Shown here piece by piece: positions 41,940 through 44,877 of a stretch of 64,000 nucleotides of DNA. Numbering within the stretch: the stretch's first letter is position 1; every line of letters starts with the position of its first letter. Source of the stretch: Iocasia fonsfrigidae (GTDB taxonomy: Bacteria > Bacillota > Halanaerobiia > Halanaerobiales > DTU029); contig NZ_CP046640.1 in assembly GCF_017751145.1 (NCBI RefSeq), forward strand, positions 3,080,137 through 3,144,136, written 5' to 3'. The position numbers were made by a program, and so were the translations under genes. The notes under the pieces were generated by a model. That model saw only the letters and a list, made by a program, of their open reading frames with translations. It did no database searches and was not told the origin of the DNA.

Positions 41940-42260
41940 ATGAAAACTGCCGGAATAACTGATTTCTATAATATTTTCCCGGATTTAAAAGGTGTTAAAC
42001 TGGATTTAGAAAATATTAAGAATGTTGAAGTAGAAGAAAAGGATACACCTAAACCACGCAAAAAAAATGTTTATGTCTCTTCAGGTCCGTATGGAGTAAG
42101 ATACTCTAATAAATCACAGAGTGAACTTATGGAAGACTTAAGAAAAACGCTTAAAAGTGTTGAAGCAAACGCAAGGGAACCTGAGTGGCATCATCTTACA
42201 GAGACACTAGTGTGTGATAAATCTTTACTCGAGAATCATATGATTGATATCAAAGTATAA
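41940..42260 (+). CDS. Conserved-looking hypothetical protein, 106 aa
   Basis: ATG 41940 is preceded by AAAGAAAGGAGG, a very strong ribosome binding site. The protein is hydrophilic and acidic-basic mixed (KNVEVEEKDTPKPRKKNVYV), with the C-terminal half SELMEDLRKTLKSVEANARE predicted helical. No membrane segment, signal peptide or known motif is seen. It is a lone plus-strand gene between minus-strand genes. Function is unknown. Confidence 0.75.
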   Translation: MKTAGITDFYNIFPDLKGVKLDLENIKNVEVEEKDTPKPRKKNVYVSSGPYGVRYSNKSQSELMEDLRKTLKSVEANAREPEWHHLTETLVCDKSLLENHMIDIKV

Positions 42261-43731: not shown

Positions 43732-43762
43732 AGTATTTTATCCCCCTTTCATTTATAGAGTC

Positions 43763-43874
43763 TGTTCGAAAAGTATCAATATATACCACCTGGGATTATA
43801 TATCCCTTCACTCAACGGTAGCACCTTAACTTCGTTCAGGGATATATAATCCCCTATTTATATCTTTTCGAACA
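43763..43874. mobile_element. 112-bp MITE-like element
   Basis: Terminal inverted repeats TGTTCGAAAAG (43763-43773) and CTTTTCGAACA (43864-43874) are exact. Inside, GGGATTATATATCCCT (43792-43807) and its exact complement (43838-43853) form a second 16-bp stem around a 30-nt loop. It has no coding capacity and lies upstream of the DJ-1 gene. A regulatory hairpin is an alternative. Confidence 0.65.
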
Positions 43875-43941
43875 CACACTTATATTATATATGTTTTTTC
43901 CTTGTTTTTCTATTCTACATTCACCAGCAAAAATCCTGCTA

Positions 43942-43992
43942 TAAAAACCCCTCCATTACTGCTTTGTTTAACATTAACCAGTAATGGAGGGA
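43942..43992 (-). terminator. Terminator of the Phd-Uma2 gene
   Basis: CCCTCCATTACTG and its 13-bp perfect complement (43979-43991) with a T-run on the minus strand. Confidence 0.9.
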
Positions 43993-44020
43993 TTATTATT
44001 TATTAACTATAAACTTCCAG

Positions 44021-44788
44021 TCACAGCAATTCATCAAACAAATGATTAATATCAGCTGATAGACCTTTAAAGGCTATTGACTCAGCTGTTTCTCCCCTTC
44101 CATAGACATTATACCTATCTATCTCATATTCATTAAAACTATATAATAAAATATTTTCCTGTTTTTGATCAATAATCCAGTATTCCTCTACTCCAGATAG
44201 TCTATAGGTATTCAATTTATCTACCAGGTCCTTATTTCTTGTACTATCTGCTAAAATCTCAATAACCAGGGTCGGGGTACCCATATAGCGTCCTTTATCT
44301 GTAATATTATCTGCCAGGTCACAGGCTACTAATAAATCCGGCTGCATAACATCTGGTTCTTTAAGATCCTTTTTATTAAAATGCACATCAAATGGCGCTA
44401 AAAATACTCTACATTTCTCAGCTTTAAAATATTCATTAAAGATAAGATACAGCCTTCCCAATATCTCTTGATGATTAATATTTGGTGAGGCCAACAGATA
44501 TATTTCCCCATTGATAAATTCCATTCTCAAAGTACTCTTTTCACTGATCTCCATAAACTCCTCGTAAGAAACTTTTTTCCCACCATATTGGTAATCAAAG
44601 GCCTTTTCCCTCACTGTAAAATACTGTTCAATATCTGTTACATAAGGGGTTAATCTGGCAACCTTAGTACCATTTTTCGTTATAACTACATCATTTTGCC
44701 CCTCAATATAATCTAAGTATTTCCCCAGGCTCTGTTTGAATTCAGTGGCAGTAATCACAACACCTTCTTGATAATTTGATGATTTCAT
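44021..44788 (-). CDS. Phd/YefM-like antitoxin domain fused to a Uma2 nuclease-fold domain
   Basis: 255 residues. Residues about 9-55 (VVITATEFKQSLGKYLDYIE with DVVITKNGTKVARLTPY) match the DNA-binding Phd/YefM antitoxin fold. Residues about 70-255 match the Uma2/DUF820 PD-(D/E)XK family: MEFINGEIYLLASPNINHQEI, PDVMQPDLLVAC and PTLVIEILADSTRNKDLVDKLNTYRLSGVEEYWIID with the E-I/V-L and YWIID signatures. ATG 44788 follows GGAGG. It has its own promoter and tandem repeats upstream. No separate toxin gene is nearby. It may be a self-regulated nuclease or a mobile-element-associated protein. Confidence 0.88.
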   Translation of the reverse strand: MKSSNYQEGVVITATEFKQSLGKYLDYIEGQNDVVITKNGTKVARLTPYVTDIEQYFTVREKAFDYQYGGKKVSYEEFMEISEKSTLRMEFINGEIYLLASPNINHQEILGRLYLIFNEYFKAEKCRVFLAPFDVHFNKKDLKEPDVMQPDLLVACDLADNITDKGRYMGTPTLVIEILADSTRNKDLVDKLNTYRLSGVEEYWIIDQKQENILLYSFNEYEIDRYNVYGRGETAESIAFKGLSADINHLFDELL

Positions 44789-44806
44789 CCAACCACCTCC
44801 AGGAAT

Positions 44807-44877
44807 ATTATATCACTACAGCTTGTTTATTTCAAATATTTTGTGCGATTAATTTAATAATTTTGTGCGATTAATTT
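44807..44877 (-). promoter_or_regulatory. Promoter with tandem direct repeats before the Phd-Uma2 gene
   Basis: TTGAAA (44835-44830), 17 bp and TATAAT (44812-44807). Two copies of TTTTGTGCGATTAATTT (44839-44855 and 44861-44877), with a 22-bp period, sit directly upstream of the -35, as expected for a site bound by the Phd-like domain. Confidence 0.75.

Follow-up and report, generated by a model that had tools for sequence, protein, structure and literature searches.

In ordinary Phd antitoxins, the part of the protein that follows the DNA-binding half neutralises the toxin. The YefM/Axe sites have TGTACA cores placed 12 bp apart, centre to centre, according to the accessible part of one report (PMC7730913), and in the accessible part of another the N-terminal dimer of an E. 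faecalis Phd protein bound one 10-bp palindrome (PMC13034048). The Uma2 (COG4636) proteins are described, in the available section of PMC551604, as putative nucleases forming a large family, one that has proliferated in some genomes; in the available section of Makarova 2009, Uma2 is termed a 'likely solo toxin' that is rarely associated with known antitoxins (PMC2701414). No mention of a Phd-Uma2 fusion was found in the accessible portions of the open-licence literature.

The window analysed here, a 64,000 nucleotide stretch of the Iocasia fonsfrigidae genome (contig NZ_CP046640.1), carries a Phd-Uma2 fusion with an intact predicted active site (Table 1), and its layout is common to about a hundred relatives (44 discovery and 64 held-out fusions). 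With yefM-yoeB and axe-txe the fusions share the head fold and pairs of short palindromic or near-palindromic cores at the predicted promoter; they differ in core sequence (TAGCTA or TCGTACGA-like), in spacing, which is mostly 20-23, 16-18 or 9 bp, and in often having three sites. Unlike Phd/YefM antitoxins, they lack the neutralising tail and have a predicted nuclease domain behind the head. We read the window protein as a probable Uma2 nuclease with its own regulator, in which the Phd head would bind the promoter site array and keep expression low, and we put the probability of this reading at roughly two in three.

Table 1 Features of the Phd-Uma2 locus in the window
Feature	Position	Strand	Basis
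Phd-Uma2 fusion gene, 255 aa	44021..44788	-	ATG-start ORF; profile matches
Phd/YefM-type head, residues 11-49, beta-alpha-alpha-beta-beta	44642..44758	-	Pfam, NCBIfam, AlphaFold2, structure matches
Linker, residues 50-75, with conserved V-x-E61-x-A-x-x-Y66	44564..44641	-	pLDDT, fusion alignment
Uma2 domain, residues 76-246, predicted PD-EXX-K type site H106, D151, E177, K191	44051..44563	-	Pfam, conservation, structure matches
Shine-Dalgarno-like GGAGGTGG	44793..44800	-	Read from sequence
-10 hexamer TATAAT, preceded by TG	44807..44812	-	Promoter scan
-35 hexamer TTGAAA	44830..44835	-	Promoter scan
Operator-like repeat 1, core TCGCACAA at 44841-44848	44838..44855	-	Repeat and genome scans
Operator-like repeat 2, core TCGCACAA at 44863-44870	44860..44877	-	Repeat and genome scans
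Terminator-like hairpin and T-run 3' of the stop codon	43935..43999	-	Inverted repeat, arms 43941-43964 / 43976-43999

Fusion gene and neighbouring region

Two full-length relatives of the window fusion, L016 and L018, were found at 72% and 74% identity. The hairpin and T-run that follow its stop codon suggest that the gene is probably its own transcription unit; this hairpin, with 11 bases between its arms, was missing from the scan that gave the promoter. The closest genes gave Pfam matches to DJ-1/PfpI, PhzF, GH31 and GH65, which are metabolic enzyme families. A Pfam search of the neighbours found no toxin or antitoxin partner gene adjoining the fusion, and the locus does not have the two-gene type II layout. 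The best PADLOC model for the protein was PDC-S03, a candidate defence protein (E 8e-54, residues 71-252), which covers the Uma2 part, with the Phd head lying outside the match.

Two further elements were noted nearby. A 106-aa ORF at 41940-42260 on the plus strand matched no Pfam family at E 0.001. At 43757-43880, downstream of the fusion, a 124-base element is bounded by inverted ends AGAGTCTGTTCGAAAAG / CTTTTCGAACACACACT and encloses a further inverted repeat. With 43752-43884 as query, 57 matches were obtained in the same genome, a number in which some places count more than once, as halves or on opposite strands; at 18 places, including that of the window, the match covers at least 108 of the 133 bases at 83-100% identity, as in a MITE-like family.

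Domain organisation of the fusion protein

The initial annotation had described an antitoxin DNA-binding domain fused to a PD-(D/E)XK-like fold, and Pfam, NCBIfam, the AlphaFold2 model and structure matches all agree with it. PhdYeFM_antitox (PF02604) matched the head with E 2e-6 and 27.9 bits, slightly below the Pfam cut-off of 29.8, and TIGR01552 (phd_fam, NCBIfam) matched it with 25.7 bits, above its cut-off of 20.8. Heads of relatives fall on either side of the Pfam cut-off (L044 38.3 and L050 30.2 above, L003 17.9 below). In the AlphaFold2 model, the secondary structure elements of the head span residues 10-46. Structure comparison of this predicted model gave Z 6.4 and 1.1 A over 43 residues with the N-terminal domain of VapB46, and Z 5.9 and 2.0 A over 45 residues with that of P1 Phd; both Z values are modest (<8) because the domain is short. 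On this model, the head appears to have the DNA-binding N-terminal fold of Phd/YefM. The profile match stops at position 42 of 74, where the linker and Uma2 follow, and the C-terminal toxin-neutralising tail of Phd/YefM is thus absent from the window protein.

The linker of about 25 residues has pLDDT below 50 for residues 54-69 and, being of low confidence in the model, is probably flexible. Its motif is well conserved (E61 in 44 of 44 fusions, Y66 in 40 of 44) and, compared by eye, resembles the N-terminus of some headless Uma2 proteins (L016 3766, L021, L023), so it is better taken as part of Uma2 than as an antitoxin tail. The idea of a tail hidden in the linker was rejected on this likeness. 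These observations bear on the proposal of the initial annotation that the gene encodes a toxin-antitoxin-like or self-regulated nuclease: the self-regulated nuclease is the better of the two readings, given the clade-specific sites described below, and the single-gene toxin-antitoxin falls short because the Phd match is truncated and the tail missing. In the latter arrangement, a Uma2 toxin would be inhibited in cis, either by the Phd head or by the linker, and freed by proteolysis of the head. The conserved motif and the low-confidence linker would permit cis inhibition, and the term 'likely solo toxin' for Uma2 (PMC2701414, available section) would suit it, but with the match ending where it does, a linker motif better assigned to Uma2 and no partner gene alongside, we consider it unlikely.

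The Uma2 domain (PF05685, COG4636) was recognised with E 2e-28 and 99.5 bits against a curated cut-off of 27. A PD-EXX-K active site was proposed for COG4636/DUF820 by Feder and Bujnicki in 2005 (PMC551604, available section), and the residues named there are all present in the window Uma2. We assign K191 as the putative migrated lysine by its position, 14 residues after E177 compared with 16 in all3650 (E111 to K127). The Uma2 part aligned with 6okh at Z 23.5 (2.2 A over 175 residues), with 1wdj (TT1808) at 19.6 and with 3ot2 at 19.5. The known structures of Uma2/DUF820/COG4636 putative nucleases (1wdj, 3ot2, 6okh, 9y1l) thus share its fold, with Z 19.0-23.5, and its predicted PD-EXX-K site, but they align from about residue 68 and are headless. 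H106, D151, E177 and K191 are unchanged in 44 of 44 fusions, which argues against the protein being a transcription factor only, with Uma2 as an inactive sensor or dimerisation domain. That reading is in keeping with our finding no measured Uma2 nuclease activity in the accessible open-licence literature, and with the statement in the available section of PMC551604 that some PD-(D/E)XK folds are thought to be inactive; we regard it as quite unlikely, and the window protein as a probable nuclease.

Relatives, clades and control genes

In 149 genomes drawn from the phylum, 40 full-length fusions were found in 19, together with one cut by a stop codon (G025:C42), which was left out. Four fusions from other searches were added to give a discovery set of 44 (HMM start ≤12, score >150, identical upstream regions merged). 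A quick tree built from only the Uma2 part split them into two groups (SH-aLRT 100), between which the head type changes once. Heads of clade A (n=25) read like VNSTDLQNAFGKYL and those of clade B (n=19), which includes the window, like VITATELKQNLGKYL. The six fusions closest to the window's (L001, L016, L018, L036, L040, L063) make up a grade within clade B on the tree as drawn, and are not to be taken as a proven subclade. Two further fusions occur in the window's own genome, L002 (40% identity) and L003 (39%), so that this genome holds one clade B and two clade A copies, a ready test of cross-talk. All fusions were sampled in whole genomes of one phylum, and as the genes are related, gene counts do not equal independent events.

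The held-out set came from a draw of 398 genomes and comprised 65 fusions from 36 previously unused genomes. One (L292) had an unreadable head and 64 were counted; G272, a headless match from position 64, was left out of the set. Clades were assigned to these fusions after reading, by head HMMs built from the first set. The control was made up of 23 Uma2 genes that lack a Phd head, including the 3 of 20 specially fetched regions that passed the filters (L201, L207, L208). An HTH_17-like head is present in five of them, as judged by profile in one case (L004) and by eye in four (L024, L201, L207, L208), and four lie closely behind another Uma2 gene (L016, L025, and L061 twice), where their own promoter may be missing.

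An operon with a second Uma2 gene was rejected as a rule: among the 26 fusions for which 700 bp or more of downstream sequence was available, 3 had a second match that began within 400 bp on the same strand, that of L069 being another fusion. Carriage of the fusions by mobile elements was likewise rejected. Viral contigs, searched with exact short-peptide patterns, gave 102 pattern matches and no confirmed relative, and phages one record, matching part of Uma2 only. Plasmids gave 33 records for the window protein and 65 for L003. Of the former, one covers 80% of the query, with 27.5% identity; it comes from Conchiformibius, lies amid transposase genes and is at most a candidate fusion. Of the latter, five cover at least 80%, and the two of these five that are among the matches listed begin at query residue 35. 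A search of genome contigs gave 33 stretches, two of them confirmed.

Repeats and promoter in the window

The two repeats are identical over 18 bases and lie 22 bp apart, start to start. They had been described in the initial annotation as two 17-bp repeats at a 22-bp period upstream of a consensus promoter; period and placement hold, and the length is corrected to 18 bp. The promoter, TTGAAA-17-TATAAT (44835-44807), agrees with the consensus at 11 of 12 positions, and 2 bp separate its -35 hexamer from the nearer repeat. Scanning of the one-contig genome (3,926,493 bases) found the 18-bp repeat nowhere else with fewer than two mismatches. With up to three mismatches, 10 places were found, the window's two among them, against 15 for a reversed control pattern, so the weaker matches are background. 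The spaced pair CGCACAA-N14..16-CGCACAA occurs once in the genome, at the window promoter. The corresponding TAGCTA pair (gap 16-17) occurs at two places, one of which is the fusion paralogue L003. The other lies at L212 1501-1528 (genome 1330359-1330386), between ORFs of 241 and 269 aa.

Paired sites that are nearly unique and stand at the genes' own promoters fit poorly with a DNA-guided nuclease, in which the head would bring Uma2 to its own operator or to mobile DNA to cut or nick it, regulation being a side effect. Cutting there would break the cell's own chromosome, and no relative was confirmed in the viral contigs with the exact short-peptide patterns. A head and a nuclease on a low-confidence, probably flexible linker, and the presence in this genome of a Uma2 protein with a second kind of DNA-binding head (HTH_17), would accord with such guidance, which we nevertheless hold to be very unlikely. 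Returning to the self-regulated nuclease, the near-privacy of the paired sites looks like self-control and not like a regulon.

The window core TCGCACAA departs from the palindrome of its relatives, TCGTACGA, at 2 of 8 positions, and the sites are paired at the predicted promoter. The asymmetric repeat is best read as a degenerate TCGTACGA palindromic site, and as such would fit a Phd-type dimer.

Site arrays upstream of the fusion genes

Sites were counted within 150 bp upstream of each gene against a baseline of dinucleotide shuffles, with motif expressions chosen after viewing the first 44 fusions. The arrays were found to be clade-specific. In clade A, TAGCTA occurred at least once in 25 of 25 (shuffle mean 3.8, max 10) and at least twice in 23 (shuffle 0.29, max 3). 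In clade B, CGNAC[GA] occurred at least once in 19 of 19 (shuffle 5.0, max 11) and at least twice in 16 (shuffle 0.8, max 4). TAGCTA was seen before none of the 19 clade B genes and CGNAC[GA] before one of the 25 of clade A. The most enriched 6-bp palindrome was TAGCTA in clade A and CGTACG in clade B. Before the 23 control genes, TAGCTA was found at least once in one and CGNAC[GA] in four, and neither was found twice in any.

Spacing was also regular. All 29 consecutive TAGCTA distances of up to 120 bp in the discovery set were 9, 16-18 or 20-23 bp, and sites of the six fusions closest to the window's are 22 or 44 bp apart, with 21 and 23 in L016. The letters of the sites vary, from ATCGCACAAAA twice in the window to ACCGTACAAAA, ACCGTACAAAA and ATCGAACAAAA in L018 and ATTGTACGATA and ATAGTACTAAT in L036, and the full palindrome TCGTACGA was found in other members of clade B. 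In clade A, and in a large part of clade B, the sites overlap the -35, the -10 or the Shine-Dalgarno sequence (e.g. TCGTACGAGGTG). In clade B members L043-L046 and L064-L072, the gene-proximal site extends into the Shine-Dalgarno, as in TCGTACGAGGTG, and lies mostly 23-24 bp ahead of HMM position 1. Binding at sites of this kind might also block ribosomes.

The two head types correspond to two clades separated by one change on the tree. The match between head and operator is therefore one switch followed by conservation, not many independent events.

Held-out fusions

A prediction, worded by residue (Q or K), was noted after the motifs had been fixed and before the held-out fusions were read. 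By residue, 38 of 40 Q heads had TAGCTA and 20 of 24 K heads had CGNAC[GA]. Three K heads (L269, L287, L289) carry TAGCTA instead, one of them twice, and the HMM places all three in clade A. They break the one-residue recognition code that the first 44 would have allowed at the column of YefM Arg10 (Q with TAGCTA 25, K with CGNAC[GA] 19), and their position in clade A indicates that the head subfamily, not a single residue, goes with the site. These three would be useful for locating the head residues that set the core.

The clade wording of the rule was adopted after the residue wording had partly failed. On it, TAGCTA occurred at least once in 41 of 43 held-out clade A fusions (shuffle 4.5, max 10) and at least twice in 34 (shuffle 0.19, max 3), with CGNAC[GA] at least twice in none. 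Of 21 held-out clade B fusions, 20 had CGNAC[GA] at least once (shuffle 7.0, max 13), 16 at least twice (shuffle 1.3, max 5), and none had TAGCTA. The core expected by clade was missing in 3 of 64 (L272, L296, L268); L268, of clade B, has GTAC-type cores, GTACCAAA, on a 22-bp lattice. Among the held-out TAGCTA distances, 35 of 43 fell in the classes 9, 16-18 and 20-23 bp, and the other eight were 15, 30 (five times), 33 or 45. At least one distance of 20-23 bp was present in 18 of 21 clade B fusions when they were scored with a relaxed core that was chosen post hoc.

The tandem repeats were first suggested to be operators in the initial annotation, and the clade-specific conservation seen in both sets of relatives supports reading them as operators of the head. 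That they arose by chance, or belong to another regulator or a neighbouring gene, is hardly credible: the intergenic DNA is AT-rich and the pair by itself is a two-copy repeat, but cores of the same class, spaced by 22 or 44 bp, precede the six fusions closest to the window's, conservation is clade-wide and recurs in the held-out set, and no pairs precede the 23 control Uma2 genes.

Proposed regulation of the fusion gene

We propose that the Phd/YefM-type head, presumably as a dimer, would bind a series of short, near-palindromic sites beside the promoter, spaced by about two turns of the helix, and that its occupancy of the array (TCGCACAA, taken as a degenerate TCGTACGA) would hold its own expression low. 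As the core class is kept despite shifts in position and spacing, and pairs occur in this sample only before genes with the Phd head, the best explanation is that the head binds its own promoter. The overlap of sites with -35, -10 or Shine-Dalgarno sequences in many relatives makes repression the natural guess, and the head probably represses its own promoter. The window sites only abut the -35, a position that would also suit an activator, so activation is conceivable too. An ordinary Phd antitoxin probably supplied the head and, with it, the operator type, the nuclease taking the place of the toxin-neutralising tail.

A wider reading, which we hold tentatively and think doubtful as a whole, is that Phd-Uma2 proteins are one-protein counterparts of toxin-antitoxin systems: the DNA-reading half would persist as an autorepressor that has an operator class to itself, the nuclease would replace toxin and tail, and loss of the head from the array would switch on a nuclease that the head could also hold on DNA. 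If true, release of the head by damage, invading DNA or titration would be the trigger that turns the nuclease on, possibly in defence or as a toxin, and the joining of HTH_17 to Uma2 would make a 'repressor-tethered nuclease' a general Uma2 design. The fusion is a possible way of keeping low a protein termed a likely solo toxin in the available section of PMC2701414.

Phd-Uma2 combines known parts, and a built-in head that would bind operators offers a direct handle on the control and purpose of Uma2. With two head clades and two site types (TAGCTA and TCGTACGA-like), heads and sites could be swapped and then probed by shift and footprint experiments, and promoters freed from repression could report nuclease production.

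Comparison with other Phd and Uma2 genes

Phd matches not fused to Uma2 numbered 80 among the matches listed (R 64, K 15, Q 1); 30 loci, L081-L110, which are the best matches of many genomes, were left out of this count. TGTACA was weakly enriched among the matches listed, in 6 of 64 R-type genes (shuffle 1.8). In the 15 K-type genes listed, CGNAC[GA] occurred in two (shuffle 2.5) and TAGCTA in three (0.7). A general Phd code was therefore rejected, unfused Phd genes among the matches listed being without broad CGNAC[GA] and with TGTACA only weakly enriched. By eye, five loci (L140, L155, L158, L163, L166) have Phd heads like VNIHEAKTHFSKLL with two TTAGTC promoter repeats, which represents another site type with another head group.

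A Phd-PIN pair in the window's own genome (L005 1495-2134) has a similar head, 47% identical over query residues 11-47, and CGCACA/TGTGC by its promoter. It differs from the fusion in having two genes, for a 77-aa antitoxin with about 35 residues past the Phd match and for a PIN_3 protein. The likeness of head and site suggests that a pair of this kind was the source of both and that the tail was lost in the fusion; however, unfused Phd genes among the matches listed do not carry these cores broadly. A possible two-gene arrangement was also noted at G055:C1:2247809-2247946 and 2248349-2248888 (minus strand), where a Uma2 gene is followed, about 400 bp further along its strand, by a Phd match.

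Uma2 has also been joined to another kind of head. In the window's own genome, L004 1330-2094 encodes Uma2 behind an HTH_17 head (PF12728, 37.2 bits, cut-off 27), and L024, L201, L207 and L208 were found by eye, from similar N-terminal sequence, to have an HTH_17-like head before Uma2.
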